Assembly: GCA_903873165.1 (NCBI GenBank) | Contig: CAIQNQ010000084.1 | Location: 1 to 37,458 of the forward strand | Reading direction: 5' to 3' | Length of the DNA: 37,458 nucleotides | Source of the DNA: an uncultured Methylococcaceae bacterium | GTDB taxonomy: Bacteria > Pseudomonadota > Gammaproteobacteria > Methylococcales > Methylomonadaceae | In this document: positions 7,067 to 37,458 of the stretch, piece by piece | Position numbering within the stretch: the first letter of the stretch is position 1 | How the letters are laid out: every line of letters begins with the position of its first letter | Program-made: the position numbers and the translations under genes | The notes under the pieces: model-generated | What the model was told of the DNA's origin: nothing | Databases searched by the model: none | Seen by the model: the letters and a program-made list of their open reading frames with translations, nothing else

Positions 7067-7658
7067 TTATATTCTCAGGGTCGGCCTCTGGAAGTTCCGA
7101 ATTATCTACTGGGGGATTATCAGGTGAATCTTGTAATTTATTTTTTAATGAATTTTTATTCTTTACTTTCCTTAATAACAATTCTTTTGACTGGCTACCT
7201 TGCATGAAAATAACTTTATCAAGATAAATTTCGGTTAATTTCCAACCATCAAGATCTCCATCCTTGCTTAATCTTCTATATTTATCTTTAACTGTCTTGG
7301 AAGCTGTACGAGAAAGAAAGGCTGATAAACCATTTTTTGTAGAATAAACACCATTTAATTCCCAATCAAAAACAACAGGAGTGAGGGAAGAATTTTGAAT
7401 TTCTTCTGGAGTTGGCTCATCAATCGGTCTACGACCTTTTATGAATAAAGGCCTAGCAACTAAATCCGCATAGCTTTCCTCTGATATTTTATGTAGATCA
7501 ATATGAGGCATTTCATCTTGCACAGTTTTATCTTCTGTTGAATTAAGGGAATCTAAAACAGCCGATTGCGACCACATCGCGAACAACCACTCACCCAAAA
7601 TTATCAAAATACAGGCAAAACAAATAGACGCTAATAAGGAAATTAATTTTGTATTCAT
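7059..7658 (-). CDS. gspN: Type II secretion GspN/GspC-type inner-membrane connector (XpsN-like)
   Basis: This 199-aa bitopic protein has one N-terminal membrane span (about 7-28). A periplasmic homology-region-like domain follows, with the stretch ARPLFIKGRRP, then VVFDWELNGVYS, a beta-rich core up to about 165, and a charged Pro/Asn/Glu-rich tail. In type II systems this position is filled by GspC, which links the inner-membrane platform to the secretin. No PDZ domain is present. The place between gspM and gspD matches XpsN of Xanthomonas, which does the GspC job there. Its start shares one base with the gspM stop (TAATG). The exact subfamily name is inferred from gene order and size. Confidence 0.8.
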   Translation of the reverse strand: MNTKLISLLASICFACILIILGEWLFAMWSQSAVLDSLNSTEDKTVQDEMPHIDLHKISEESYADLVARPLFIKGRRPIDEPTPEEIQNSSLTPVVFDWELNGVYSTKNGLSAFLSRTASKTVKDKYRRLSKDGDLDGWKLTEIYLDKVIFMQGSQSKELLLRKVKNKNSLKNKLQDSPDNPPVDNSELPEADPENINE

Positions 7659-8260
7659 TAAGCTGGGTTTCTCATAAAACTAACCGCCTGAAAATTAACA
7701 TTCAACTCATTACTTGACTCCATTTGCTTGGTTACTCGATTTCGAGTGCCTCGCATAGGTCTTATATCAATCTGATTAATTATAATTAAAGGCTCTGATG
7801 TTTCAATTTTATACAACACCTTACGTAATACATCACTGTTTCCGGTCATTCTAACGCTTACAGTTATACGCTTAAAATTTTCTTTATTACTTAAGGGTAA
7901 AGCTTGCGTACTACTTAATTGTCCACCTGCTTCAATGATCGCTTTTTTAATAAACTCCTGCATATCTGCTGAAGCCAAAGCATCGGTATCTTGCAAATTA
8001 AAATAGCCTTGCATATCTTGTTGCTGATTAATAGTTGCCACGCTTTTGGTTATAAGATCCGCCTTAGCCAAAATACGTTCATATTTTTGCAACTTAAAGA
8101 CCAGATCATTTTTTGTATTATGCAACTCCATTGCCTCACTCATTAAAGGCATAATAATGACTAAAAAAATAATTATAATTAAGCTAAATAAAATACCCAG
8201 CGCAATCGAACGCTGCTGAATCTCAGGTGATGAAAAGTCTATTTTTTTAAAGTTATTCAT
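7658..8260 (-). CDS. gspM: Type II secretion inner-membrane protein GspM
   Basis: This is a component of the inner-membrane assembly platform that pairs with GspL. With the ATG at 8258-8260 it is 200 aa: a short cytoplasmic start, one membrane span at about 17-40 (ALGILFSLIIIIFLV), a coiled-coil-like stretch, and a periplasmic ferredoxin-like domain ending in NFQAVSFMRNP. Longer starts exist (ATG at 8272, TTG at 8290). I prefer 8260 because it overlaps the gspL stop in ATGAATAA, exactly as gspD overlaps gspN. The family (T2SSM_b type) is recognised by size, layout and position rather than a catalytic motif. Confidence 0.88.
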   Translation of the reverse strand: MNNFKKIDFSSPEIQQRSIALGILFSLIIIIFLVIIMPLMSEAMELHNTKNDLVFKLQKYERILAKADLITKSVATINQQQDMQGYFNLQDTDALASADMQEFIKKAIIEAGGQLSSTQALPLSNKENFKRITVSVRMTGNSDVLRKVLYKIETSEPLIIINQIDIRPMRGTRNRVTKQMESSNELNVNFQAVSFMRNPA

Positions 8261-9359
8261 GCTCTTTAGCATCCGATTTGGCCAGATCAACTGTTATTTG
8301 AAATCTCTCCATTGAACTCACTCTATCCTGAGTAACGGGTGATGCAAAACGGGCATTTATAAATATTTCCGAAGCCTCCAGTGTTGCTAATAACGCTGAT
8401 GCTGTTGGTGACTCACCTTGTATCTGTAGATGCCCCTCTGAATATTGAACATAGCTCAATGTAGTATCATCTTTTAGAAGTGAACTTAAAGTGTTCAGCA
8501 TATCCACTAAAGCTGGAGCTGCACTTTTTTCTTTAATTAATTGATTTGTTTCATCGATAACAGCATCTATGGATGCTTGCATCGCTTTAACTTTTTTTGC
8601 ATCCTTTTCCAAATCAGCCGCTTTTACACTTAATTCATTGACCGCTTGATATTCAAAAAAAACCGGCATAGCAAACACTAATAACAATAATAAACATGTC
8701 AAGCCTATTAATGCCCCATGCACTAATCTAGGCAAACTGGCCTTTTTTTGTCTCAATCTTTCAGGTAATAAATTATACCCATCATCGAGATCAGAAAGGT
8801 TATTCGGAGTACCTTGATAATCCACATAGGACGGTGATAAACCTATTGCTTGAACATCCTCAAACAAACCATCTAGCAATTCACGTGTTGTTAAAATCAT
8901 CATAACCCTAATCTGGCCTGATTCATCTACACCTGACAAGGGTTTAACTGAGAAATACACTTGCTCTTGCTTAAAGGGTGTATATCTGTCGAGTTCATAA
9001 GCTACAACTTGAGCAAGATTTTCCTTAGCCGCTGCGGGTAAACTCAATTCTTTTTGAATAGCGTCTTGCCCTAACAACCTTAAAAGCACACTTGCCTTGC
9101 TTAAGCGCTCATCTTTTTCATACAAACTTTGCAAATCAACGGATTTATCAGCACAGGCAATACTTAAGAGATATTCTTCTTGGCCTGCAGAATAATAAGT
9201 TAATTCAAAATGCTCATCATTTTTAATAATAACTATGACACCTTGACTATCATTAATTATCTGATTAATCTTTTGAGGTATTAAAAAATCAAGTTCTCTC
9301 TTCCACCAACGAAAAAACTGCTTAATATTTACATCAATTGTTGAGTTCAGGTTCAGCAT
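8253..9359 (-). CDS. gspL: Type II secretion platform protein GspL (PilN-like periplasmic part)
   Basis: This 368-aa bitopic protein links the cytoplasmic ATPase GspE to the inner membrane. The N-terminal part (1-200) is the actin-like cytoplasmic domain, including AYELDRYTPFKQEQVYF, a segment typical of GspL/PilM. One membrane span lies at about 215-240 (rich in Leu: LTCLLLLLVFAMPVFF). After it come a coiled coil and a PilN-like ferredoxin fold ending FQITVDLAKS. Its start lies 26 bases inside gspK, so the pair is probably translated in coupled fashion. No clear ribosome binding site precedes the ATG. Confidence 0.9.
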   Translation of the reverse strand: MLNLNSTIDVNIKQFFRWWKRELDFLIPQKINQIINDSQGVIVIIKNDEHFELTYYSAGQEEYLLSIACADKSVDLQSLYEKDERLSKASVLLRLLGQDAIQKELSLPAAAKENLAQVVAYELDRYTPFKQEQVYFSVKPLSGVDESGQIRVMMILTTRELLDGLFEDVQAIGLSPSYVDYQGTPNNLSDLDDGYNLLPERLRQKKASLPRLVHGALIGLTCLLLLLVFAMPVFFEYQAVNELSVKAADLEKDAKKVKAMQASIDAVIDETNQLIKEKSAAPALVDMLNTLSSLLKDDTTLSYVQYSEGHLQIQGESPTASALLATLEASEIFINARFASPVTQDRVSSMERFQITVDLAKSDAKEHE

Positions 9360-10293
9360 ATTGTTTTACTAATAATTCACTCATAACATCAGAGAATAAT
9401 GATTTGTTATTTGGCGTTGCATGCTGCCACTTTAATACTTGGAATGAACTCGCATCATTACCTTCAGGTTTCTCAACGACCACATGCAATCTGGCTTTAG
9501 AGTCTCCCGCTAGAAAAGCCTCTGAGATAATTGTCACAATATTATTTTTACCCGAAGCAGTTCTTTGTAGCCCAGAAGCCAAAGGAAGCGGTGGGGGCGG
9601 CAAATTGTTTCTAGCATTATCTATTCTTGCCAAAACAAAAGCCTCTATCATTTCTGCATCCATTCCAGAAATTGTTTTAAGTACTTCTTTAGTTGCAAGC
9701 TGTAAATCTACTTGAGGTTGACCCGAATTTACAGTGACTAAAGGCTCAAGCCATGAAAAGACCGTTTTATCCATACCTAAAACAAGCTGTAATTCTTCTA
9801 CAGATTCAAATGGCTTATTTCTTGGTTCATAAGATAAACCAGCATCTTGATATTCTGCTTTTTCAGCACCATTAAGATTGACCAAATCATCCGCATCACG
9901 CCAATCAAGAATAGCACCAACTAACTTACTTTGAAATTCTTCATCAACAGGTGCGTTAACCATTAATTTTTGTAACAAAACTGGATCCGCCTTATTAAGG
10001 TCTATTTTACCTGTTTCGGCTTCTAGTCGTATTCGTATTTTTGCATGATTAGCCAAAATCTCATAAATACTACCATCCGCTTTCCAAGCTTTATTAATGT
10101 CAGAATTTAATAACATTTTTTCGGCTATCGCTATTCCCGATTCAGCTACAGCCTTTGCTTCAGCATTATTTTTAATAACAGCAGCAACCGTAGTTTCTCT
10201 ACGCATAGTTAATGCAAAACTTCCTGCCATAATCATCAGTAAGCTAAGCACCCACAGCACTAAAACTAAAGCAACACCCTTTTGATTTTTCAC
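9334..10293 (-). CDS. gspK: Type II secretion minor pseudopilin GspK
   Basis: This is the large minor pseudopilin thought to cap the pseudopilus tip. The 319-aa protein starts at a GTG (10291-10293) with GGAG well placed before it. A short charged leader (MKNQKG) is cleaved before VALVLVLWVL. Position 5 of the mature protein is not Glu, as is usual for GspK and unlike the other pseudopilins. The alpha-domain insertion includes GKIDLNKADP and ILDWRDADD, the calcium/SAM-like region seen in the family. The start overlaps the gspJ stop (GTGA). Confidence 0.94.
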   Translation of the reverse strand: MKNQKGVALVLVLWVLSLLMIMAGSFALTMRRETTVAAVIKNNAEAKAVAESGIAIAEKMLLNSDINKAWKADGSIYEILANHAKIRIRLEAETGKIDLNKADPVLLQKLMVNAPVDEEFQSKLVGAILDWRDADDLVNLNGAEKAEYQDAGLSYEPRNKPFESVEELQLVLGMDKTVFSWLEPLVTVNSGQPQVDLQLATKEVLKTISGMDAEMIEAFVLARIDNARNNLPPPPLPLASGLQRTASGKNNIVTIISEAFLAGDSKARLHVVVEKPEGNDASSFQVLKWQHATPNNKSLFSDVMSELLVKQYAEPELNN

Positions 10294-10964
10294 TGCCCCG
10301 CTCCGTGCCCATTAATACCTACACTGTCAACGGGTGGAGAGGTTACTTTTAAATCAATAATTATCTCAGGCCAATAAATACCGTTCATCAATTCTATGTT
10401 TATTTTTACTAAATGCGGCAGTGTTGATTTGCCCACCCAATCATCTGCCCAAACACCTTGACTAGCAGGGTCATCAGCACCAAAGTACGCAATTTTAAAA
10501 GCTTTTACATGTTTAATTAAGGTAACTTCTTCTATTGAAGCTTCATCTCGTTCCATTCCAGTAGCAAACGGTTCAAGCGATACATTAATAAATCCCTCTT
10601 CGCCATCTTCATATAACGTCACTGAAAACATCTGTAGACCCGCGCGACCAACACTGGCAGGAAACGCTGATACAAAATGTAAAGTCTGTGAACCTCCTTG
10701 AAAAGAAAAGATTTTTTCTTCAGTTCCAGAGTCATTCCATAAGGGTCTTGCTACAGACAAATGCTGTTGAAAAAAATTATAAACAACCGCCATTTCATTA
10801 ACGTTTGTTATTTTTCTTTCACCTTTTTCCCAACTATCCGCACAAATTTTTAAACTCGTAAATAACAAAACAACCATTATGCTTAATAACGTCAAGCCAA
10901 TAAGTACTTCAATAAGCGTGAAGCCTTTCAGCTTATTGTTAGTAACGACCTTATCAACAGACAT
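10290..10964 (-). CDS. gspJ: Type II secretion minor pseudopilin GspJ
   Basis: This minor pseudopilin of the tip complex (with GspI and GspK) is 224 aa from the ATG at 10962-10964. An in-frame TTG at 10970 would add two residues but is less likely. The prepilin signal is KLKG followed by FTLIEVLIGL, with cleavage after Gly14 and the conserved Glu at mature position 5. The rest is a soluble beta-rich domain without cysteines near its end. It follows gspI with almost no gap and overlaps gspK at its stop. Confidence 0.92.
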   Translation of the reverse strand: MSVDKVVTNNKLKGFTLIEVLIGLTLLSIMVVLLFTSLKICADSWEKGERKITNVNEMAVVYNFFQQHLSVARPLWNDSGTEEKIFSFQGGSQTLHFVSAFPASVGRAGLQMFSVTLYEDGEEGFINVSLEPFATGMERDEASIEEVTLIKHVKAFKIAYFGADDPASQGVWADDWVGKSTLPHLVKINIELMNGIYWPEIIIDLKVTSPPVDSVGINGHGAGQ

Positions 10965-10966
10965 GA

Positions 10967-11377
10967 TCAAGAACCATTAACCATTTTGATAGTCGTCAAT
11001 TCAAATTGCCTATTGTTTAATTTATTAACTTGCCAACTAACAATAACTTTTACTTTAAATAAAGCTACAACTGTAGAAGAGGGTTCATTACTTGCTGAAT
11101 CAAAAAAGTACGGTGACACAACCACTAACCAATCATATTTATCATTCTCTTTACCTGATTCTTCGCCTTCTCGCAAAGACGATTCAACTCCTGTTCTTGT
11201 CATTAATCCTTCTGCCAATTGAACTGCAGCAGTATAGTCCTCTGAAACCATTGCCGTATTAACACCACCAGAAAAAATCTTCAGCAAAATACCTAACGAC
11301 AAGGCCAAAATAGAAAAGGCAATGACAATCTCCAGCAAGGAAAAACCCTGCTGCTTGCTAACGGACATTTTTATCAT
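10967..11377 (-). CDS. gspI: Type II secretion minor pseudopilin GspI
   Basis: This 136-aa minor pseudopilin nucleates the pseudopilus tip with GspJ and GspK. The prepilin signal is QQG followed by FSLLEIVIAF, with cleavage after Gly11 of this start and Glu at mature position 5. A second in-frame ATG three codons later (11368) is an alternative start. Both starts lie inside the 3' end of gspH, an overlap of up to 20 bases. The compact C-terminal part ends in QFELTTIKMVNGS, matching the family layout of one long helix and a small sheet. Confidence 0.92.
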   Translation of the reverse strand: MIKMSVSKQQGFSLLEIVIAFSILALSLGILLKIFSGGVNTAMVSEDYTAAVQLAEGLMTRTGVESSLREGEESGKENDKYDWLVVVSPYFFDSASNEPSSTVVALFKVKVIVSWQVNKLNNRQFELTTIKMVNGS

Positions 11378-11822
11378 TTAAATCTATTTGCCCAGTTAAC
11401 CAATTAATGTCAATTTGCCAAGACAAGTTACCTTGTTTTAAGACAACTCTTCCACCCGTTGAAGAACCATCTGCAAAAAATCGCACTCCAGCCAAACTCG
11501 TTCCTTTAGTTTGGCTTTTTGCTGTAACAACAGTAACACCTATAGATTTTGGAATTTGATACAGTTTATCGCGTCGACTTACGCTATAAGTATTGGCCTC
11601 CAGATCAATAATCACACTCATTTCTTGATGAGAAATTAAAGCTTCACCTCTTGCAAAACGTAAAGCTGAAACCAAATCTCTAGCGGCAATTTTAAGCTTA
11701 GTCGCCTCATTTCCCGATGATAAATTAAGACTAACCACCGAGAACCCCAAGACAATAATAAATAACACAACTATTAACTCTAATAGAGTAAAGCCGTTAT
11801 TCCGTGTAATGGGGCCAGACAT
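11358..11822 (-). CDS. gspH: Type II secretion minor pseudopilin GspH
   Basis: This minor pseudopilin sits between the GspG fibre and the tip. It is 154 aa. The prepilin signal is RNNG followed by FTLLELIVVL, cleaved after Gly10, with Glu at mature position 5. The hallmark GspH segment RDLVSALRFARGEALIS lies at about 42-58, and the GSSTGG region near the end is typical of the C-terminal sheet. A GAGG ribosome binding site lies just upstream. It is separated from gspG by 36 bases, the largest gap within the gsp cluster. Confidence 0.93.
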   Translation of the reverse strand: MSGPITRNNGFTLLELIVVLFIIVLGFSVVSLNLSSGNEATKLKIAARDLVSALRFARGEALISHQEMSVIIDLEANTYSVSRRDKLYQIPKSIGVTVVTAKSQTKGTSLAGVRFFADGSSTGGRVVLKQGNLSWQIDINWLTGQIDLNDKNVR

Positions 11823-11858
11823 AAAGGCCTCTAGTTAAATAATTTAATTAACTGAAAA

Positions 11859-12287
11859 CTATTCCCAACTAAGAACATCCTGATCTTCACCTTTACCACC
11901 TTCTCTTGCATCCGAGCCATAAGAAAAAATATCAAATTTGCCATGCTCACCAGGAAAAACATAATGGTATTCATTTTGCCAAGGATCTAATGGAATTTTA
12001 GCTTTGCCTAAATAGGGACCATTCCAGTGCCTTGCATTATCAGGAGCTTCAACCAAAGCTTGCAAACCTTGCTCTGAAGTTGGATAACTACCCATATCCA
12101 ATTTATACATATCTAAGGTAGCTGATAAATCTTCAATTTGCACTTTAGCCGCTTTAGTCTTAGATTCCCCCATATGTTTCATGACTTGGGGGCCGACAAT
12201 ACCCGCTAACATGGCAATGATACCTAATACCACTAATAACTCAAGTAATGTAAAACCCGCCTGCCTACTATTTTTTAAATATTTCAT
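11859..12287 (-). CDS. gspG: Type II secretion major pseudopilin GspG
   Basis: This is the main subunit of the pseudopilus, 142 aa, the usual size. The prepilin signal is RQAG followed by FTLLELLVVLGII, cleaved after Gly11, with Glu at mature position 5. The family's diagnostic C-terminal half is intact: YKLDMGSYPTSEQGLQAL, then NGPYLGKAKIPLDPW, then FDIFSYGSDAREGG with the calcium-binding acidic residues. It follows gspF after 13 bases. Confidence 0.97.
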   Translation of the reverse strand: MKYLKNSRQAGFTLLELLVVLGIIAMLAGIVGPQVMKHMGESKTKAAKVQIEDLSATLDMYKLDMGSYPTSEQGLQALVEAPDNARHWNGPYLGKAKIPLDPWQNEYHYVFPGEHGKFDIFSYGSDAREGGKGEDQDVLSWE

Positions 12288-12300
12288 TATTATATTTCCA

Positions 12301-13512
12301 TTAAAAAGCTAAATCATTAACACTCAAAATTGCTAACAGAATTGACACTATAATCCCCGCAATCATTAGTCCTAACGTAATGATTAACATGGGTTCAAGA
12401 AACGCCAATAAACGCTGAATAGCCACTCTAAGCTGTTTATCGTATATCGTGGCTATTCTAAGTAGCATTTCTTCAAGCCGGCCTGTTTCCTCACCCATCT
12501 TGATCATTTGCAAGGCCATTTTAGGTAATAACGACTTTTCTAGTAAAGCCTCCGATAAATTCTTACCTTGCTTTAACTGTGCCTCAGCATTTGAAATTGT
12601 TTCAGCCAGAACCAAATTATCAACTGTTTCTCTGACTATAACCAAAGCTGAAATAATTGACACGCCATTACCTAATAATGTTCCCAGTGTTCGGCTAATA
12701 TTAGCGGTTTCTTTGTTAGTAATAATCGTACCAGCTAAAGGTAATTTTAAAAAATAACCATCCCAGACTTTTTTTCTTACAGGATCAGCCATTTGATACT
12801 TCATATAACTAGAGATAATTAAAAACCCCAATAATAATGTCCACCAATAACTTTGTAGCCACTCTGCCAATCCCACCACAATTTGCGTTGATACGGGTAA
12901 AGCTTTACCTGCACTTTCAAACATCTCGGTAAACTGGGGAACCACAAAGGTCAACATTATAAATAATGATGCTAAAGACATTATTAACAAAATAATAGGA
13001 TAAATTAATGCGGTACTAACAGTGTCCTTTAACTCCTGTGATCGCTCTAAATATTCAGCTAACCGCGTTAGCACCTCATCTAAACTACCACCCGCCTCAC
13101 CCGCACGGATCATGTTTAAATAAAACTTGGTAAACACGCCTTGTTGTTGCTCCAAGGCATCCGCCAAAGACACTCCGCCCTTTACCTTTTCAAGAACCTT
13201 AGCGATTAATTTTGTTAATTTTTCATTATCTTCAGTCAAATCCATTAACACAAATAACGCTTTATCAATAGGTAATCCAGATTCTAATAATGTCGCTAAT
13301 TCACCCGTAAAAAACCCAATGTCTTTAGGAGATAATTTAGCTTTTTTGGAGCCAAATCCTAAAAAAGAACCACTATTTGCGAGTGCAACCTTAATTGGAA
13401 TATATCCTTCAGACTGAAATGCACTAATTAAGGCTTTATCATCAAGGGCTTCCCTTATCCCTTCTTCTGTTTCTCCAACACTATTAATAACTTTATATGA
13501 AAATAATGGCAT
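12301..13512 (-). CDS. gspF: Type II secretion polytopic inner-membrane protein GspF
   Basis: This central platform protein is 403 aa. The N-terminus MPLFSYKVINSVGETEEG is the family start. Two GspF cytoplasmic helical domains (about 70-190 and 270-395) each carry the repeated hallmarks of a TLLESGLPI/TLLGNGVSI loop and a MIRAGEAGGSLDEVL/MIKMGEETGRLEEML loop. They are separated by membrane spans near 165-190 and 215-240, with a last span near 375-395. The start lies one base after the gspE stop. Confidence 0.96.
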   Translation of the reverse strand: MPLFSYKVINSVGETEEGIREALDDKALISAFQSEGYIPIKVALANSGSFLGFGSKKAKLSPKDIGFFTGELATLLESGLPIDKALFVLMDLTEDNEKLTKLIAKVLEKVKGGVSLADALEQQQGVFTKFYLNMIRAGEAGGSLDEVLTRLAEYLERSQELKDTVSTALIYPIILLIMSLASLFIMLTFVVPQFTEMFESAGKALPVSTQIVVGLAEWLQSYWWTLLLGFLIISSYMKYQMADPVRKKVWDGYFLKLPLAGTIITNKETANISRTLGTLLGNGVSIISALVIVRETVDNLVLAETISNAEAQLKQGKNLSEALLEKSLLPKMALQMIKMGEETGRLEEMLLRIATIYDKQLRVAIQRLLAFLEPMLIITLGLMIAGIIVSILLAILSVNDLAF

Positions 13513-13513
13513 T

Positions 13514-15199
13514 TTACGACTCCGTAGTCACACGCATAACTTCCTCTAAAGTCGTAACGCCCTCGACAACCTTAACTAAACCATTCTCATAAAGTGTTTG
13601 CATACCTTCAGCAATTGCTAATTTTTGAATAGCTCCTGCCTCTTCGTGGGCCATAATCAATTTTCTGATTGGATCTGTCATTGGTAAAAACTCGATAATA
13701 GCCAACCTTCCTCTATAACCTGTACCAGAACAGGAGGCGCACCCGACCGGCTTGTAAAGCAAAATGTCAGGCTCAGAGGTAAATCTTTCTAAACGTAATT
13801 CCCTAACAACTTCACGTGTAGCCACACTACTGACTTTGCAAGATTGGCACAATCGTCTAACTAAACGCTGAGCCAAAATGCCGTTAACAGTAGAGGTTAA
13901 CAAATACTCTTCCAGTCCCATATCCAATAACCGCGTAACACCGCCTGCAGCGTCATTCGTATGCAGGGTCGATAACACTAAATGACCCGTCAATGCTGAT
14001 TGCACAGCAATTCTTGCCGTCTCTAAATCTCGCATTTCACCGATCATAATAACATCAGGATCTTGACGAACAATTGAACGTAAAGCTGAAGCAAATGTTA
14101 AGCCTATTTGTGGTTTTGCTTGTATTTGATTAATCCCTTCCATTTGATATTCAACGGGATCTTCTACTGTAATAATTTTGCGTTGAGGGGTATTGAGTTG
14201 CTTCAAGGCTGCATACATAGTGGTAGATTTTCCACTTCCTGTTGGGCCTGTAATTAATATAATTCCATGCGGCATTGATAGAACATCAATAAATTGTTCT
14301 AAATGTCGACCAGCAAAACCCAACTGCACAAAATCTAATACGGTATTTTCTTTATCCAATAAGCGGATTACAACGCTTTCTCCGTGCATCGTTGGTATTG
14401 TTGATACCCGCAAATCTAATTCTTTACCTATCATCTGCACCTTAATACGACCATCTTGAGGCAAACGTCGCTCCGCTATATTAAGTTTAGCCATAATCTT
14501 GATACGAGAAATAACGGCTGCAGTTGACTTAACGTTAGGCGCATCAATTTCTTGCAAAACCCCATCCACGCGCAATCTAACTTTTAATGATTGCTCAAAA
14601 GGCTCAATATGAATATCTGATGCTCGTGTTTCAATAGCACGTTGCATAATCAAATTTACCATTTTGATGACAGGTGCTTCACTCGCCAAATCTTTTAAAT
14701 GCTCTAAATCTTCTTCACCTAAATCATCAATAGTCAAATCATCAATTAATTTATCCATTTTTGAACGATCTTCACCATATTGAATATCAAGCGCGGCGTC
14801 AATTTCTGACAGCAAACCCACCTTGACGACAATTGATTTCCCAATCATCAAACTTAAAGCATTAATTGTAAAAGCATCCTCTGGATCCATCATTGCGATA
14901 ATTGCTTGATCTTCAGTCGCACTTAAACCAATAATGTGATAATTTTTCAAAAATCGTAAAGAAACATCTTCTGGTAATTGTCTTTCAATCGGATATTGAT
15001 CTGAACTTATTTTTTCAAATTGTCCTGAATCAACAAACGCATCAGCGACATCTAATTCAGAACATAAGCCTAACTTTACCAATAATTGCGGCAGACTCTC
15101 TGCTACAGATGTTTTTTGGACGCGCTCAACTTTTTTTAACTCCGAAGCAGAAAGCTTACCCCTTTCCTGTAAAGTTTTTAGTAAAGACTGATAAATCAT
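13514..15199 (-). CDS. gspE: Type II secretion cytoplasmic ATPase GspE
   Basis: This hexameric ATPase drives pseudopilus assembly. It is 561 aa. An N-terminal GspE/MshEN-like domain (about 1-140) is followed by the ATPase core. The core shows Walker A GPTGSGKST at 318-326, the Asp box near EDPVEYQ (346-351), Walker B DPDVIMIGEMRD at 380-391, and a His box around TLHTNDA. The zinc-binding tetracysteine motif is complete with Cys451, Cys454, Cys487 and Cys490. It is first in the operon gspE-F-G-H-I-J-K-L-M-N-D. The 196-base gap before it probably holds the operon promoter. Confidence 0.97.
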   Translation of the reverse strand: MIYQSLLKTLQERGKLSASELKKVERVQKTSVAESLPQLLVKLGLCSELDVADAFVDSGQFEKISSDQYPIERQLPEDVSLRFLKNYHIIGLSATEDQAIIAMMDPEDAFTINALSLMIGKSIVVKVGLLSEIDAALDIQYGEDRSKMDKLIDDLTIDDLGEEDLEHLKDLASEAPVIKMVNLIMQRAIETRASDIHIEPFEQSLKVRLRVDGVLQEIDAPNVKSTAAVISRIKIMAKLNIAERRLPQDGRIKVQMIGKELDLRVSTIPTMHGESVVIRLLDKENTVLDFVQLGFAGRHLEQFIDVLSMPHGIILITGPTGSGKSTTMYAALKQLNTPQRKIITVEDPVEYQMEGINQIQAKPQIGLTFASALRSIVRQDPDVIMIGEMRDLETARIAVQSALTGHLVLSTLHTNDAAGGVTRLLDMGLEEYLLTSTVNGILAQRLVRRLCQSCKVSSVATREVVRELRLERFTSEPDILLYKPVGCASCSGTGYRGRLAIIEFLPMTDPIRKLIMAHEEAGAIQKLAIAEGMQTLYENGLVKVVEGVTTLEEVMRVTTES

Positions 15200-24742: not shown

Positions 24743-25573
24743 TTAAAGTTTTTTGAGGATATAATCCAACCAACATAAGGGCAAAACTCGCTTTAAAAAA
24801 ACAAACAAATAAGTTGGAAATGTCACGTAGTAACGTATTTTAGGACGTTTAGCCTCAATAGCATGAACCACCTTATCGGCAACAGCACTAGCCGGCAGAG
24901 TAAAAACAACCGTAGGACCTTCCTTTTGCAAACGAGCTTCCATCGCCTCATAAGCCGCTTTATGATAACTATTAGTTGGATCAATATGTTGTTTATATAA
25001 AGCGTAAGAATTGGTTCTAAATTCACTTAAAATAGGGCCAGGTTCAATTAAAGAAATATAAATACCTGAGCCATACAATTCAAGACGTAAGGTATCAGCC
25101 AAACCTTCTATTGCAAATTTGCTGGCGTTATAAGCACCGCGATAAGGCATAGCGACCAAACCTAATATAGAACTATTATAAATAATCCGACCATAGCCTT
25201 GCTGACGCATCACTGGCAATACAAGATTCGTCAATTCATGTGTTCCAAAAAAATTAATTTCAAACTGTGAAGTCAATACTTCACGAGTTAAATCTTCTAC
25301 CGCTCCTGGTTGCCCATAAGCACCATTATTAAACAGCACATCAATTTTTCCTTCCGTTAATTCCAGCATCTCTTGCACAGCTTTTTTTATACTGACACTC
25401 TGCGCTAAATCTAATTGCAAAGCCGTAAAACCTTCATTTCTTAAACGCTCTACATCAGCCAATTTCCTTGCTGATGCAATAACATGATGACCCCTCGCTT
25501 TCAAAATACCCGCCGTGGTGTACCCAATTCCAGAAGAACAGCCTGTAATCAAAATTGTTTTAGATAAACTCAT
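24743..25573 (-). CDS. Short-chain dehydrogenase/reductase (SDR family)
   Basis: This 276-aa classical SDR has the dinucleotide motif TGCSSGIG at 10-17, NNGAYG at 82-87, a catalytic Ser near 134-135 (YNSSILG), and Tyr148 and Lys152 in YNASK. A PG motif (EPGPI) follows the active site. The C-terminal part extends into a hydrophobic segment (YVTFPTYLFVFLKRVLPLCWL) that may touch the membrane, as in lipid- or retinol-type SDRs. Substrate is unknown. It is transcribed away from the small membrane-protein gene at 25739, sharing a 165-base intergenic region. Confidence 0.9.
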   Translation of the reverse strand: MSLSKTILITGCSSGIGYTTAGILKARGHHVIASARKLADVERLRNEGFTALQLDLAQSVSIKKAVQEMLELTEGKIDVLFNNGAYGQPGAVEDLTREVLTSQFEINFFGTHELTNLVLPVMRQQGYGRIIYNSSILGLVAMPYRGAYNASKFAIEGLADTLRLELYGSGIYISLIEPGPILSEFRTNSYALYKQHIDPTNSYHKAAYEAMEARLQKEGPTVVFTLPASAVADKVVHAIEAKRPKIRYYVTFPTYLFVFLKRVLPLCWLDYILKKL

Positions 25574-30358: not shown

Positions 30359-33300
30359 ATGGAAAAAAAAGTTGCAATAATTGGATTTTCATACAGATTA
30401 CCTAATTCATCTAACAACTGTTTTTGGAAAGACTTATTAGAAGGCCGAGATTTAATCACAGAAGTTGACCCTGATAGATGGTCAAAAGACATCTTTCAGC
30501 ATCCCAATCGAAATAATCCTGGCACAAGCTACACTTTTTCATCAGGTACTATAGGAGATATCTCAAGTTTCGACGCCGAATTCTTTGGAATATCACCCAG
30601 AGAAGCAGCCATCATGGATCCTCAACAATTACTATTGCTTGAGATGAGCTGGGAAGCATTAGAAAACGCTGGCATCAAACCTTCTAGTATACGCGGCAGC
30701 CAATCTGGCGTATTTATTGGTATTTCAAGCACCGACCACTCTTATCGATTAGCTGACGATCTTGCTGCAATTGACGCGTCAACTGCCACTGGCAACGCCT
30801 TAAGTATTGCGGCAAACCGAATTTCGTTTGCTTTAGACTTATGTGGGCCAAGTTTTGCTGTAGATACTGCCTGCTCTTCTTCCATGGTAGCCTTTCACCA
30901 AGCCTGCAAATCTATACTTAGTGGCGAATGTACCCTAGCCTTAACAGGTGGGATTAGTCTTCATTTACATCCTTTTGGATTCATCATATTCTCAAAAGCA
31001 TCAATGCTGTCACCTAGAGGACGTTGTAATCCCTTTGATGAAAGCGCAGATGGTTACGTAAGATCAGAAGGGGGTGGAATATTTGTACTTAAAGATTACG
31101 ATCAAGCCATGGCTGACGGTAATACTATTCTTGCTATCGTAGCAAATTCTGGTATCAATACTGATGGTCACAAATCTGGCCTAACAATACCGAATCCAAA
31201 TGCACAAGCCACCCTACTGCATCAAGTTTATGATCAAGCGGGCATAAATGCTAACGAAATTGATTATATAGAAGCGCATGGCACAGGCACCTCTGTAGGA
31301 GATCCACTTGAAGCAAAAGCCTTGGGTAACGCACTTGGAAAGCTAAGAACAACTGATAATCCCTTATTAATAGGCTCAGTTAAAAGTAACCTAGGACATC
31401 TTGAACCCGCATCTGGCGTTGCTGGACTTGTAAAAGCACTTTACTGCATTCAAAAACGCATAATTCCAGCTACTATTGGTATTAAATCACTTAATCCAAA
31501 TATCCCATTTGAAGACTTAAATCTTAAGGTGGTCACAGAAACCCACCCCCTTAAAGAAACAGGAAAACTAACTATTGGCATTAATTCATTTGGTTTTGGT
31601 GGAGCAAATGCACACGCAATACTAGAAAGCCACGAACAATCAAACACGACTCCCAAAAAGCACAAAATCAAAAGTTTTCCAATCATCCTTACAGGAAAAA
31701 ATGCAGCAGCACTCAAGGATTCTGCACTCCATTTTGCCGCTTTTATTGAAAACCAAACTGATACTACAATATACGACGTTGCTTACTCAACGGTATTTCA
31801 CCGAGACTGGCATGATCACAGAGCTATTTTTTATGGAAATTCTAAAGAAACATTCATCAATGCCCTTCTTAATTTCGCCAATTCTAATTCAAAACACCCA
31901 CAAGTTGAATCAATTGTAGCGGTTTCCGCCCCATTTGGCCCCGCTTTTATATATTCGGGAAACGGTTCTCAATGGGCTGGAATGGGGAAACTTTTTTTAG
32001 AGGAAGCCCCTGAATTTAAAAGGACTATCGAAGAAATTGATATCCTATTTAATCAATACGCTGATTTTTCACTACTTGATGAACTTTCAGGTAAAAATGG
32101 ATTAGATAGATACCAGTTCACCGAAATATCGCAACCCGCTCTTTTTGCCATTCAAGTGGGTATAACCCTATTTTTAAAACAAAAAGGCATATCACCTTCC
32201 GCTGTAGCTGGTCACAGTGTAGGAGAAGTTGCTGCGGCTTGGGTCTCGGGCGCATTAAGTTTAGAAGCCGCCGTAAAAGTTATCTACCATCGCAGTCAAT
32301 TACAAGGGACAACTAAAGGCAAAGGCGCAATGACGGCTGTTGGACTAGGTCTAACAGCAATGGAAAAGATCTTCACAGACTTGCAACTTTCAACATCATT
32401 AACCATTGCAGGGGTAAATAGCTCAAATGGCTTAACTATTGCGGGTACCGTAGAAGCGTTAGATCAACTTGAAGCTGCGTTAAATGCCCATAATATTTTC
32501 TACAAAAGACTTGATTTAGACTACGCATTTCATAGTCCTATCATGGATGAAATTGAAACAGGCGTTAAAGAAAGCCTCGCTGATTTAAAGCCTAATCAAG
32601 CTAACATACCCTTCTATTCAACGGTAACTGGCGAATTAATAAATGGCAATACACTCGATGCCGAGTATTGGTGGCATAATATTCGTAAACCCGTAAAATT
32701 TGAACAAGCCATCAAGAACATCTTAAAAAGTGGCACTAACATATTTCTTGAAATTGGCCCCCATACCGTTTTACGAAACTACATCAATACCAGCGCAAAA
32801 GATTTAGATATTAACATTCGCATCTTATCTACCCTAACGCGCGACAATGACAGCTTACAAAAAATCACCGAAACGTTTAATCAAACAATTATTACAGGAG
32901 TTACATTCGATTGGTCATCAATTTTTACAACGCCCGGTCGATTTACGCCACTCCCTAACTATCCATGGCAAAGAGAACAGCATTGGCATCCAATTTCATC
33001 CGAATCACTTGGCTTAATTTATCGAGACAAAATACATCCACTACTTGGTTTTCCTCTTAAAACCCATGATTTAACATGGGAAAACCAACTCGATATTTAT
33101 TTAAATCCAACACTAGCAGATCATATTGTTGGTGGAGCAACCGTATTTCCTGGGGCTGGTTTTGCAGAACTTGCGCTAGCCGCTTCTTTCGCATGGAAAA
33201 ACACTGATCTAGCGGAAATAGAAGAACTAACAATACAAACCCCTTTACTCTTAAACAACACCCTAGCTAAACTCATCCGTCTAAATATTGATGCAAAAGA

Positions 33301-36300
33301 TGGAGCATTTGCTATCAAAAGCAGACAGTATGGCAGCAACGAAAACTGGACTGAACATAGTAGCGGTCGTATTTTAAGCGAACCCAATCAATTATTATTT
33401 AAACAAATAGAACCTGCATTACCCACTCGCCAACCAGACTTTACCAGCATTAGCCACAATCAACTCACTAGCGCAAATGACCTAACTTATGGCGAAGCAT
33501 TTCAATGCATTGATTTCGGTTGGATAGAAGAAAACTCAGCCATCGCTGTTTTCAAAATCCCAGAAAATATAAAAATTGAGCTTACACACTATCACTTACA
33601 CCCCAGTCTATTAGATTGCACTTTTCAATTAATCTTTCAGATACTTAAAGATTATGTAGATACCCATGCAGGCGTTACCTTTATCCCAACAAAACTGGGG
33701 AATCTTACTTTCAATTACAAGGCTGGAAAACCAAACTTCGCAAAAGCCACACTTCTACGCCATACGCCTCGCTCGCTCATTGCAGAATTTTGTATTTATG
33801 ATGAGACAGGGTTACCCATCGCTGTTATAAAAGAAGCACGCTTTCGCAGTATTAGACTCAGCAAAAGCCCAACAGATCATTTAGATTATCTCAAATATCA
33901 AAGCATACCAGCACCACACACAGGTATTGATATTAAACCAAACACGATAGTTTGTATTAAAGAAATACAGGCAGTTATGTCTAAATTAGTCAGACGTGCC
34001 GCACTTCATGGAATTTATAATTGCTATTCAGAAGAAGTCGAACCCTTACTTGAATGCCTCTGTAGTCTGTATACAGAACAAACCTTAAGAAGTTTATCTA
34101 CCAACGGCGAAACACTGTCACACCATGATATAGACGCTTATCAAAACGCTAACAACGCACAATTAGCTTATTTTAATTATCTGCTAACCAGTGCGAAAGA
34201 AGATCAAATACTCATTGCATTGAATGATGAATGGAAAATTTCATCAAACCATCATTTTCAAGCGTCAGTTGAAAATATATGGAATAGTTTAATTGCTGAT
34301 TACCCAGATTATTTTCATATCATTCATGCAGTAGGACGCATAGGAATGCATCTTACTGACCTTCTTCAAGGTAAACTAACACTACAGCAAATCTTACCTC
34401 AAGAATCCACACTCAGTGCACTCAATAAACAAGTACTTGGAGCCGAAGGCCAACAAAAAATAGGTCAGAGTCTGAGAGATTTATTGTGTGAAAGTATAAA
34501 TCAACTTCCCGAGGGTCAACTAGTCAATGTACTTGAAATTTGCAACGATAAACCGCTTTTTGCTATTGATATCTGTGCGACTATAGATTCTAGTCTATGC
34601 AATTATGTTTTCGCAGGCACTACACCCGAGGCATTAGAAACCTTATCGGAACTTAAGGAACAATTTCCAAATATTGCAACAACGCTGATTCAAAATGATT
34701 TAGAGGCACCTGAGTACAACGCAATTTATCACATTGCGATCATTAGCCTTAATTTTGACACCATTGAAGAAAGTCATATTGCTTTAAATCAAGCTTATAA
34801 AACCCTATTACCAGGCGGGATTTTAATCATCATTGGTCAACATACCTGCCGATGGATTGATTTTATTTTTGGAGGTCGAAATACCCATTGGTCACAAGAA
34901 GAAAACGGGCAATGGTTATCCAAACAACAAAATGCTTTATTCTGGCAACGCCAAATTGAAGAACTTAACTTCACTAATAGTACAATTTACAGCGTATCAC
35001 CCGAAACCTTATCAGGCCCCTATATTCTGCTAGCCCAACAAAAAGCCCAAGAACCCAAACCCTCTGACCTTTTAAACAATAAACCACGCAGTTGGATTAT
35101 TGTCACAGATGAAGCTGGTTACTCTGTCAATCTAGCGGATGAGTTAACAAAAAACTTACAAATTAACCGTGATATCGTTATACAAACTCAAATCGAAGAT
35201 ATCAAGCAATTTCAAGCATTGTTACTTGAAACCACAACCCATTACGGCGAGCTTGATGGCATTATTTTTTTAGCAGGTCTGACATCACCCTCAAGCAATA
35301 TAACAATTGAGTTAATATTTGAAGAACAAGTCAATCGATGTAATCAAGCGGCTATTATTTTACAAGCCTGTGAAAAAACGCATACCAATACAAACTGTTG
35401 GCTTGTAACAAGAAATGCAGTTAGTCATCTTCTAAAAAAACCAACCAATAAAGACGCGAACATAATCAATGGTGATGCCGCCTTATGGGGGTTTGGTCGT
35501 ACCATGCTAAATGAAACATCTAATTTAACAGTACATTTAGTTGACCTTGAAAGTCCACTACTAATGGAAAACGTAATCACCGCTTTAGAACATGAATTAA
35601 ACAACCCAGATAAAGAACAAGAAATAATTATAAGTTCTACTGGTGCTCGTTATGCACCTCGCTTACATCTAGATACTAATCAAAACGCAAATGACGATAA
35701 AAAAATTGAAAATCCAGTCCTAAAACTTGGATTTCAATTTCCAGGTCAATTACGAAACCTTCGGTGGGAGGCGCAGTATCCAAACCAACCTAATCAAGAT
35801 GAGGTTGAAATTGACGTACATGCCAGTGGCCTAAACTTTCGCGACATCATGTATACACTAGGACTTCTATCCGATGAAGCCGTCGAAAATGGTTTCTCAG
35901 GTCCAACACTTGGTCTTGAGTTTTCAGGATGTATTCGCAGCGTTGGGAGCAATATTAAAGATTTTTCAGTGGGAGACAAAGTCTTAGGTTTTGCATCATC
36001 CAGCTTTAGTAATCGTATAATTTCTCAAGCTAATACCATTACGCATATTCCAGGAAATATTTCGTATGAAGCCGCTGCAACTATCCCAAGTACTTTCTTT
36101 ACTGTTTACTATTCACTCCACCATCTAGCCAGCTTACAACCCGGTGAAAAAGTCCTCATTCATGGCGCAACAGGTGGTGTAGGGCTAGCCGCGATACAAA
36201 TTGCCAAATGGATAGGTGCAGAAATATATGCAACGGTAGGCTCAGCAGAAAAGCGGGATTTCCTAAAACTTCTCGGAATTAATCATATCTATGATTCTCG

Positions 36301-37458
36301 ATCACTTAGTTTCGCCGATGAAATAATGGCACAAACACAAGGCACAGGCATTGATGTGGTGCTTAACTCACTAGCAGGCGAGGCCATTAATAGAAACTTT
36401 CAAGTTCTTAAGCCCTTTGGCCGCTTTCTTGAACTAGGTAAGCGAGATTTTTACGAAAATACAAAAATAGGCTTACGACCTTTTAGAAATAATATTAGTT
36501 ACTTTGGGATAGATGCAGATCAACTGCTAAAAGTTCAATCTGAACTGACTAAAAAACTCTACATCGAAATGATGAGTCTATTTTCAGAAGGTATTCTCCA
36601 CCCATTACCTTACCTATCATTTGAAGCTGATGACATTATTAACGCGTTTAGATACATGCAACAATCTCGTCATATCGGCAAAATTGTAATTACCTATCGC
36701 AACGGAATTAATAAAATTCATTACCCTAAAACAGAAACTCCAGCATCTTTAACGCTCGCTGCAAACAATACCTATATTGTCACTGGCGGATTAAGTGGGT
36801 TTGGTCTTAAAACAGCCGAATGGCTGGCTGATAAAGGTGCCCGCCACCTTGTCCTAATAAGTAGAAGTGGCGCAAATAATGAAGAAGCCAAATCAGTCAT
36901 TGAACAATTAAAAATACGCCATGTGCAAGTACATGTCGCACAGTGTGACATTACCGATAAATGGGCTATTTCAACTTTATTAGCAGAAATAACTTCAGAA
37001 ATGCCGCCACTTAAAGGCATTGTGCATTCCGCAGCTGTGATAGAAGACAGTCTCATTTTAAACACCGACGCAGAAAAAATAAAAAAAGTATTGGCACCCA
37101 AAGTATTAGGCGCTTATTATCTACACGAGTTGACCATCGACATACCTCTAGATTTCTTTATTTTGTTTTCATCAGCCACTACTTTATTCGGCAATCCTGG
37201 TCAAAGCAGCTATGTTTCGGCTAACACATGCTTAGAATCATTAGCAGAACAACGCCGAGTTAATGGGCTACCAGCAACCTGTGTTGCTTGGGGTGCTATT
37301 GATGATGTTGGCTTTTTAGCCCGTAACAAAAACATAAAAGCCGCATTATTAAACAGAATGGGGGGATCCGCACTTAACTCAACAATCGCTCTAAATATTC
37401 TTGAAAATTTATTAATCAAAAACAAATCAAATATAGGCATACTAGAACTTAATTGGCA
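30359..37458 (+). CDS. Reducing type I polyketide synthase, KS-AT-DH-(inactive MT)-ER-KR, 3' end beyond window
   Basis: 2366 codons are visible without a stop. KS: Cys172 (DTACSSS), His307 (EAHGTGT) and His347 (SNLGHLEP). AT (about 530-830): Ser620 in GHSVGE and His725 in YAFHSP; GHSVGE favours malonyl, YAFH is mixed. DH (from 893): His922 in the HxxxGxxxxP motif and Asp1086 in LLDCTFQ, both intact. At about 1210-1550 a methyltransferase-like region has lost its SAM loop (LEICNDKPLF at 1392). A structural KR half (about 1575-1770) precedes ER, whose NADPH loop is GATGGVG at 1936-1942. KR has TGGLSGFG at 2142-2149, Ser2272, Tyr2285 and Asn2289; VIED resembles the B-type LDD motif. No loading module precedes KS. 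An ACP is expected just beyond the edge. Confidence 0.97.
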   Translation, partial: MEKKVAIIGFSYRLPNSSNNCFWKDLLEGRDLITEVDPDRWSKDIFQHPNRNNPGTSYTFSSGTIGDISSFDAEFFGISPREAAIMDPQQLLLLEMSWEALENAGIKPSSIRGSQSGVFIGISSTDHSYRLADDLAAIDASTATGNALSIAANRISFALDLCGPSFAVDTACSSSMVAFHQACKSILSGECTLALTGGISLHLHPFGFIIFSKASMLSPRGRCNPFDESADGYVRSEGGGIFVLKDYDQAMADGNTILAIVANSGINTDGHKSGLTIPNPNAQATLLHQVYDQAGINANEIDYIEAHGTGTSVGDPLEAKALGNALGKLRTTDNPLLIGSVKSNLGHLEPASGVAGLVKALYCIQKRIIPATIGIKSLNPNIPFEDLNLKVVTETHPLKETGKLTIGINSFGFGGANAHAILESHEQSNTTPKKHKIKSFPIILTGKNAAALKDSALHFAAFIENQTDTTIYDVAYSTVFHRDWHDHRAIFYGNSKETFINALLNFANSNSKHPQVESIVAVSAPFGPAFIYSGNGSQWAGMGKLFLEEAPEFKRTIEEIDILFNQYADFSLLDELSGKNGLDRYQFTEISQPALFAIQVGITLFLKQKGISPSAVAGHSVGEVAAAWVSGALSLEAAVKVIYHRSQLQGTTKGKGAMTAVGLGLTAMEKIFTDLQLSTSLTIAGVNSSNGLTIAGTVEALDQLEAALNAHNIFYKRLDLDYAFHSPIMDEIETGVKESLADLKPNQANIPFYSTVTGELINGNTLDAEYWWHNIRKPVKFEQAIKNILKSGTNIFLEIGPHTVLRNYINTSAKDLDINIRILSTLTRDNDSLQKITETFNQTIITGVTFDWSSIFTTPGRFTPLPNYPWQREQHWHPISSESLGLIYRDKIHPLLGFPLKTHDLTWENQLDIYLNPTLADHIVGGATVFPGAGFAELALAASFAWKNTDLAEIEELTIQTPLLLNNTLAKLIRLNIDAKDGAFAIKSRQYGSNENWTEHSSGRILSEPNQLLFKQIEPALPTRQPDFTSISHNQLTSANDLTYGEAFQCIDFGWIEENSAIAVFKIPENIKIELTHYHLHPSLLDCTFQLIFQILKDYVDTHAGVTFIPTKLGNLTFNYKAGKPNFAKATLLRHTPRSLIAEFCIYDETGLPIAVIKEARFRSIRLSKSPTDHLDYLKYQSIPAPHTGIDIKPNTIVCIKEIQAVMSKLVRRAALHGIYNCYSEEVEPLLECLCSLYTEQTLRSLSTNGETLSHHDIDAYQNANNAQLAYFNYLLTSAKEDQILIALNDEWKISSNHHFQASVENIWNSLIADYPDYFHIIHAVGRIGMHLTDLLQGKLTLQQILPQESTLSALNKQVLGAEGQQKIGQSLRDLLCESINQLPEGQLVNVLEICNDKPLFAIDICATIDSSLCNYVFAGTTPEALETLSELKEQFPNIATTLIQNDLEAPEYNAIYHIAIISLNFDTIEESHIALNQAYKTLLPGGILIIIGQHTCRWIDFIFGGRNTHWSQEENGQWLSKQQNALFWQRQIEELNFTNSTIYSVSPETLSGPYILLAQQKAQEPKPSDLLNNKPRSWIIVTDEAGYSVNLADELTKNLQINRDIVIQTQIEDIKQFQALLLETTTHYGELDGIIFLAGLTSPSSNITIELIFEEQVNRCNQAAIILQACEKTHTNTNCWLVTRNAVSHLLKKPTNKDANIINGDAALWGFGRTMLNETSNLTVHLVDLESPLLMENVITALEHELNNPDKEQEIIISSTGARYAPRLHLDTNQNANDDKKIENPVLKLGFQFPGQLRNLRWEAQYPNQPNQDEVEIDVHASGLNFRDIMYTLGLLSDEAVENGFSGPTLGLEFSGCIRSVGSNIKDFSVGDKVLGFASSSFSNRIISQANTITHIPGNISYEAAATIPSTFFTVYYSLHHLASLQPGEKVLIHGATGGVGLAAIQIAKWIGAEIYATVGSAEKRDFLKLLGINHIYDSRSLSFADEIMAQTQGTGIDVVLNSLAGEAINRNFQVLKPFGRFLELGKRDFYENTKIGLRPFRNNISYFGIDADQLLKVQSELTKKLYIEMMSLFSEGILHPLPYLSFEADDIINAFRYMQQSRHIGKIVITYRNGINKIHYPKTETPASLTLAANNTYIVTGGLSGFGLKTAEWLADKGARHLVLISRSGANNEEAKSVIEQLKIRHVQVHVAQCDITDKWAISTLLAEITSEMPPLKGIVHSAAVIEDSLILNTDAEKIKKVLAPKVLGAYYLHELTIDIPLDFFILFSSATTLFGNPGQSSYVSANTCLESLAEQRRVNGLPATCVAWGAIDDVGFLARNKNIKAALLNRMGGSALNSTIALNILENLLIKNKSNIGILELNW

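Follow-up and report, generated by a model that had tools for sequence, protein, structure and literature searches.

A single-module polyketide synthase at the contig end

The window, that is the whole stretch of DNA analysed, is an entire contig (C84, 37458 bases, G+C 35-40%) from a bacterium of the Methylovulum family, which together with the pmoA found in its genome identifies the host as a methanotroph. At genus level, the low G+C, compared with 40-42% in published Methyloprofundus genomes (PMC8788690), allows no more than a guess at Methyloprofundus. Its last open reading frame (30359-37456, forward strand) encodes 2366 amino acids of a type I polyketide synthase (PKS) and leaves the contig with an open 3' end and no stop; as the window is the whole contig, this truncation is due to the assembly and not to a stop codon. 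By comparison with the same-genus genome G011, about 180 C-terminal residues including the ACP lie beyond the contig end. Pfam matches above cut-off were obtained for KS (residues 3-250 and 258-375), AT (530-847), DH (893-985 and 1035-1165), ER (1813-2111) and KR (2138-2315), which bears out the anatomy described in the initial annotation, a protein that starts directly at KS and carries a full reductive loop. Each of the catalytic residues listed there was checked, from C172 to N2289 and including HGATGGVG, and all are as described (Table 1). According to the motif rules for AT specificity the combination of GHSVGE and YAFH is of the malonyl-CoA type, and malonyl-CoA is therefore the predicted substrate.

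Table 1. The PKS gene and its domains (positions in the window)
Feature	Position	Strand	Basis
Single-module fully reducing iterative type I PKS, assigned to the RkpA/WcbR/SgaA type	30359..37458	+	ORF, Pfam domains, residues, KS clade
KS domain	30359..31633	+	C172/H307/H347
AT domain	31946..32899	+	GHSVGE and YAFH, malonyl-type signature; S620/H725
DH domain	33035..33853	+	H922 (HxxxGxxxxP) and D1086
Methyltransferase-like domain, probably inactive	33941..35053 (boundaries approximate)	+	AlphaFold/Foldseek; motif I degenerate
Structural (non-catalytic) KR half	35087..35683 (boundaries approximate)	+	Model secondary structure, FASN psi/KR and LovB matches
ER domain	35741..36694	+	HGATGGVG
Catalytic KR domain	36770..37303	+	S2272/Y2285/N2289

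The genome, with a completeness rating of 99.97%, holds only one type I PKS KS, the other two KS matches being of FabF/FabB size. In the full-length proteobacterial relatives examined, the ACP is marked by a DSLM motif ~77-105 residues before the protein end; a search of the own assembly for the missing ACP segment gave no match. The genes for an outer-membrane protein, a POT transporter, FabV and FNR upstream of the PKS lie on the opposite strand, and the upstream neighbours of the PKS differ among the same-genus genomes examined, so these genes were rejected as members of the cluster. The window further contains type II secretion genes (4766-15199, reverse strand; GspD, GspK and GspE identified), methionine-salvage genes (1011-2859; acireductone synthase and methylthioribulose-1-phosphate dehydratase) and an SDR (24743-25573) that reached 177 bits against a KDSR-model cut-off of 400.

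A probably silent methyltransferase-like fold between DH and ER

DH and ER are separated by 635 residues, in which no Pfam methyltransferase match was found. An AlphaFold model of this interval, calculated with 23 homologues as input (mean pLDDT 83), gave the C-methyltransferase of CurJ as best Foldseek match (E 2.4e-19, TM by target length 0.73), followed by matches to the lovastatin nonaketide synthase (LovB) and to the psi/KR part of human FASN. As modelled, the interval folds like a PKS C-methyltransferase joined to a structural KR half. The domain order would thus be KS-AT-DH-MT-structural KR-ER-KR-(ACP) and truly that of animal FAS and fungal HR-PKS, as had been proposed from the sequence. 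Motif I of the methyltransferase-like domain reads VLEICNDKP in the window, compared with LEIGAGTGG in Nocardia and Verrucomicrobia homologues, and an intact SAM motif is also absent from the proteobacterial homologues that are linked to an alpha-oxoamine synthase (AOS). From this degenerate motif the domain is probably silent. Among PKS homologues without AOS, intact or near-intact SAM motifs between DH and ER were seen in L014, L016, L018, L027 and L034 (Nocardia), L021 (Streptomyces) and L015 (Verrucomicrobia); the C-terminal end of the five Nocardia proteins resembles a thioesterase.

An AOS and capsule genes probably continue the locus

Two genomes of the same genus, G011 and G033, encode a PKS with 77% identity to that of the window, followed by a 449-residue PLP enzyme (the AOS) and by KpsS-like, NAD-epimerase, FemAB/GNAT-like, KpsC-like, glycosyltransferase and Wza-like genes. 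In the own genome, contig C40 opens with AOS residues 162-449, 81% identical to the AOS of these relatives, and continues with KpsS-like, epimerase and FemAB-like genes up to the end of a KpsC-like gene. At their 3' ends, C40 and C206 have 121 21-mers in common in reverse complement, which fits one exact overlap of ~141 bases, and C206 carries on with KpsC-like, glycosyltransferase and Wza-like genes before small transposase-like ORFs close the contig at its far end (L098 51-688). The resulting gene order matches that of G011, G033 and G008. Between C84 and C40 there is no end overlap; relative to G011, the missing PKS residues and ~160 AOS residues, roughly 1 kb, lie between them, and a bridging piece was searched for in the own assembly and not found. 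The join, with the PKS directly before the AOS, is therefore inferred from synteny with the three relatives; in the same-genus genomes that have both genes on one contig, the AOS directly follows the PKS.

The initial annotation had found no nameable cluster in the visible context and had looked to the downstream genes for an answer. The cluster is in fact recognisable and lies downstream, off the contig, in the form of the AOS and the adjoining capsule genes. Of the functions to be looked for there, glycosyltransferase, Wza-like export and two PPTase-like genes are present in the own genome; the ACP was not found in the assembly.

The own locus shares its epimerase- and FemAB-like genes with G008, G011 and G033, whereas many relatives, such as G027 and Methylovulum, carry SDR and LTA-synthase-like genes in their place; the locus of Methylovulum miyakonense HT12 (L010) reads PKS-AOS-KpsS-SDR-LTA-like. 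The own C40/C206 locus has no KDSR-like SDR (SgaC), an epimerase-like protein being found instead. A query with the LTA-synthase-like gene had no match in the whole own genome, though the gene is present in G027 of the same genus. The epimerase-like protein gave structural matches only to general SDR/epimerase structures, and for the FemAB-like protein neither a PDB relative nor a CerS-like structure was found. By gene set, the pair recalls CerR and CerS of the Caulobacter ceramide pathway (spt, cerR, cerS, acpR, aasR; PMC11324152, PMC11087976), where SPT-like, NAD-dependent reductase-like and N-acyltransferase-like genes are likewise close together, and may serve as a lead. The own acyl chain, however, would come from the PKS instead of AasR/AcpR, and the own AOS stays below the SPT family cut-offs.

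The PKS belongs to the RkpA/WcbR/SgaA family

In a quick KS tree, with SH-aLRT support in place of bootstrap and without named WcbR, SgaA or HglE sequences, the window KS fell into a clade of 50 rows (SH-aLRT 100) together with sequences from Rhizobium, Acidiphilium, Roseibium, Methylovulum and Nitrosomonadales, while PfaA-like, modular and Nocardia sequences were placed outside. AOS linkage and KS clade correspond imperfectly, as the AOS-linked PKSs L132 and L136 are outside the clade and the Streptomyces PKS L021, which has no AOS, is inside on a long branch.

In the S. meliloti record CP090106, the order is PKS, AOS, SDR, PF00884 protein, KpsS-like and KpsF. By the expected order, we take its genes to be rkpA, rkpG, rkpH, rkpI and rkpJ. 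The record carries no gene names, so this assignment rests on the published rkp gene order (PMC7902896). The S. meliloti PKS shows about 34-42% identity to the window PKS, depending on the segment; between the RkpJ-position protein and the own KpsS-like protein the identity is 42%. The RkpI position (L143 14391-15929) is occupied by an unannotated PF00884 (LTA-synthase-like) protein, homologous to the LTA-synthase-like protein of the methanotroph clusters (27%). In the literature, WcbR/RkpA is the name of a PKS family tied to capsule clusters, including those of Nitrosomonas (PMC3908369). The capsule-associated PKSs RkpA/RkpG(HIJ) of Sinorhizobium/Rhizobium and WcbR of Burkholderia share with the own system the KS clade, the domain order, the start at KS as a single module, with the ACP seen in relatives, the AOS directly 3' of the PKS, an export gene beside the PKS and adjoining capsule genes (KpsS/RkpJ-like, KpsC-like and Wza-like). 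The own locus differs in having epimerase-like and FemAB-like genes instead of those expected at the RkpH position (SDR) and the RkpI position (PF00884), both of which are absent from C40/C206.

A comparable pair is SgaAB of P. fluorescens MYb115, in which an SPT-like AOS likewise follows an iterative single-module PKS. Both sgaA and sgaB are needed for the formation of C24, C26 and C28 sphinganines, as published in 2025, and 6101 homologous sga clusters were counted (PMC12134224). A pair of the SgaAB kind from Pseudomonas sp. TMW 2.1634, which is not MYb115 itself, shows 47% (PKS) and 64% (AOS) identity to the own proteins; differences of the own locus from SgaAB are the lack of the SgaC-type SDR and the presence of adjoining capsule genes. 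The window PKS is thus almost certainly a member of the RkpA/WcbR/SgaA family. As one finding that would refute it, the initial annotation had named a KS that falls within a characterised cluster of known product, and this is largely what was observed: the KS is in the RkpA-type clade, and a pair of the SgaAB kind has a known product. Rather than a synthase without a nameable product, as initially described, it would be the methanotroph member of an already known family, for which close relatives and C40 point to the AOS as partner and, by analogy with SgaAB, to a probable product.

The generic similarity of the PKS, which among solved structures comes closest to mycocerosic acid synthase, DEBS modules and FASN, would also suit the first module of an assembly line or a lipid synthase of the PUFA, MAS, Pks13 or HglE type. 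We regard this as extremely improbable, since the genome has no second PKS gene, the PKSs of relatives stop ~80-100 residues past the ACP with the AOS next, and the NCBIfam cut-offs were reached neither for Pks2 (1084 of 2400) nor for Pks13 (704 of 2100) or PfaA (336 of 1010). Together with the KS position apart from the PfaA-like and modular branches, the lone type I PKS and these scores led us to reject a modular assembly line, PfaA, MAS and Pks13; the single module stands, and no further PKS modules follow. The mono-modular Swf PKS of sponge symbionts has the same KS-AT-DH-ER-KR-ACP architecture, but carries HATGT and an altered DPQQR and is partnered by reductase/sulphotransferase and radical-SAM proteins (PMC3908369), whereas the window KS has HGTGT and DPQQ and its partner is an AOS. 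Fungal sphinganine-analogue clusters such as that of fumonisin combine an HR-PKS of this domain order with an AOS as well; the own system differs in its degenerate MT, its bacterial origin and its link to capsule genes, and the likeness is one of logic.

Distribution of the PKS-AOS pair

Among proteobacterial PKS loci that were fetched by PKS similarity and had enough DNA downstream, 31 of 32 have an AOS next to the PKS. With all taxa included, the loci fetched in this way comprise 31 with and eight without AOS, seven of the latter being actinobacterial and the eighth being G018; the count excludes loci obtained by way of the AOS, as these are biased. G018, a complete genome of the same genus, is a natural loss mutant: its PKS (L074, G018:C1 6124-10676) ends after 1029 residues and is followed by a transposase-like ORF, no AOS was found, and the broken PKS adjoins a KpsE-like gene. 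In genome samples, the AOS was detected at E <= 1e-100 in 36 of 251 genomes and 11 of 48 genera of the order, and at E <= 1e-85 in 12 of 369 genomes of the class. KpsS-like, KpsC-like, Wza-like or KpsE/M/T genes stand beside the pair in alpha-, beta- and gammaproteobacteria, in differing gene orders. The mobilizable plasmid pL21564-1 of Pseudomonas sp. TMW 2.1634 (L144) carries PKS and AOS with KpsC-, GNAT-, LTA-synthase-like, SDR-, KpsS-, KpsF-, KdsB- and KdsA-type genes; this plasmid-borne set and the variable upstream neighbours fit horizontal spread.

The AOS resembles serine palmitoyltransferase in its motifs

The methanotroph AOS carries DEAHS and GTLSK, and by these motifs it matches the solved SPT 3a2b (DDAHS and GTFSK), not BioF (DDAHG and GTLGK); of the PKS-linked AOS sequences examined, only one lacks the SPT-type DEAHS. 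None of the NCBIfam SPT equivalog cut-offs was reached (295 of 640, 263 of 500 and 199 of 670), and the highest score was obtained with the bioF model (348, cut-off 426). As a separate protein of the own genome is above the BioF cut-off (468 vs 426), the PKS-linked AOS is not the biotin enzyme. The PKS-linked AOSs appear to form a separate subfamily, and with such scores serine as substrate, and hence serine palmitoyltransferase-type activity, is predicted from the motifs.

The bioF model as best score would also agree with the older reading of RkpA as a 'fatty acid synthase', in which the PKS supplies an unusual fatty acid that acylates a conventional glycolipid or phospholipid carrier and the AOS uses alanine or glycine or has a side role. 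Likewise, the anchor of the S. meliloti 1021 KPS is called a phospholipid in the title of a reference cited in PMC5539429. Against this stand the DEAHS motif, the near-universal coupling of PKS and AOS in proteobacteria and the properties of purified SgaB, which converts acyl-CoA and L-serine to 3-ketodihydrosphinganine, prefers serine almost exclusively and makes almost no use of alanine or glycine (PMC12134224); we consider this older reading quite unlikely.

Several AOS homologues deviate in their context. In L128, L133 and L134, AOS genes with the SPT-type DEAHS have no adjoining RkpA-type PKS; in L131 (6476-9820) the homologue is within a 1114-residue open frame and apparently fused to another protein; and in Planktothrix agardhii (NZ_LR882937.1 30533-31738) it is covered by an annotated type I PKS feature and may be part of a PKS-AOS fusion. 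At their N-terminus, methanotroph and Pseudomonas PKS-linked AOSs have a KDKLIQQALERR helix in common, and a short DRIIN/RMIS-like tail closes most of the methanotroph PKSs examined (for example L067, L070, L076 and L144 for the two kinds of termini); helix and tail are possible docking elements.

Proposed pathway and role in the capsule

From its domains and motifs, the KS-AT-DH-ER-KR-ACP synthase would build a long saturated chain from malonyl units, and both the iterative use and the unusual lipid product suggested in the initial annotation appear likely. The ACP-bound chain would, with high probability, be handed to the AOS and there condensed with L-serine under release of CO2 to a 3-keto-sphinganine-like base, a reaction shown for the P. 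fluorescens SgaAB pair and extrapolated to that of the methanotroph; a sphingoid product is likely by this analogy. A cluster reductase, i.e. the NAD-epimerase-like protein in the own locus and an SDR elsewhere, would reduce the ketone, and N-acylation of the sphingoid base may be the task of the FemAB/GNAT-like protein. The lipid would then serve an ABC-exported capsule made by the KpsS-like, KpsC-like, glycosyltransferase and Wza-like proteins, in the simplest form as its membrane anchor or carrier, as the conserved neighbourhood and rkp/wcb genetics suggest. An iterative fully reducing PKS (a bacterial 'type I FAS') acting with the AOS to provide a sphingoid lipid for the capsule is thus the best explanation of the locus and a probable one. 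Taken separately, the role in the capsule is on balance favoured, and the function as anchor, as opposed to another role in the capsule, is a tentative proposal.

Alternatively, PKS and AOS may make a free sphinganine or aminoketone as secondary metabolite or signal, with the capsule genes as mere neighbours. SgaAB indeed yields long-chain sphinganines, both free and with a headgroup, that have an effect on a nematode host, and these were treated as secondary metabolites in a text without mention of capsule, polysaccharide or Kdo (PMC12134224). The capsule genes, however, accompany the pair in three proteobacterial classes despite their differing orders, and rkpA mutations affect the KPS in S. 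meliloti (PMC5539429), which makes a free metabolite unlikely compared with a sphingoid lipid for the capsule.

In capsules of the E. coli type, the Kdo linker is started by KpsS on (lyso-)phosphatidylglycerol and extended by KpsC (PMC7694667). In S. meliloti the KPS is held by a lipid anchor, and the KPS genes with a phenotype include rkpA (PMC5539429); SgaAB species with a mass increase of 154 Da were assigned as phosphoglycerol sphingolipids (PMC12134224). As phosphoglycerol sphinganine resembles lyso-phosphatidylglycerol, it is, in our own synthesis of these reports, a natural candidate acceptor for the Kdo linker. More speculatively, a PKS-derived sphingoid base might be the anchor of ABC-exported Kdo-linked capsules across proteobacteria, with a phosphoglycerol long-chain sphinganine replacing lyso-phosphatidylglycerol as acceptor of KpsS/KpsC; in this view the locus of the methanotroph, where tailoring would be by the epimerase and FemAB-like proteins, represents a variant. 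The LTA-synthase-like gene without match in the own genome counts against such an acceptor. The inner membrane separates LTA-synthase-like enzymes, which act on its outer face, from KpsS, which acts inside; this leaves the order of steps or a flipping unexplained if the sphingoid base is the anchor.

Implications

To our knowledge, the product of RkpA/WcbR-type synthases, and why the capsule needs them, has been an open question since the rkp genes were described in the 1990s. With SgaAB, a product is known for a PKS-AOS pair of this kind, which makes the capsule role of the family testable, and the neighbourhood suggests a testable answer, namely a sphingolipid dedicated to the capsule. If a sphingoid anchor is true, it would join the rkp/wcb capsule and sga sphingolipid literatures, between which we found no link. 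A sphingoid product also predicts sphingolipids in methanotrophs, of which no description was found in the literature. As the same PKS-AOS genes occur in methanotrophs, relatives of nitrifiers, rhizobia, Paraburkholderia and on Pseudomonas plasmids, a result in one host would inform many.
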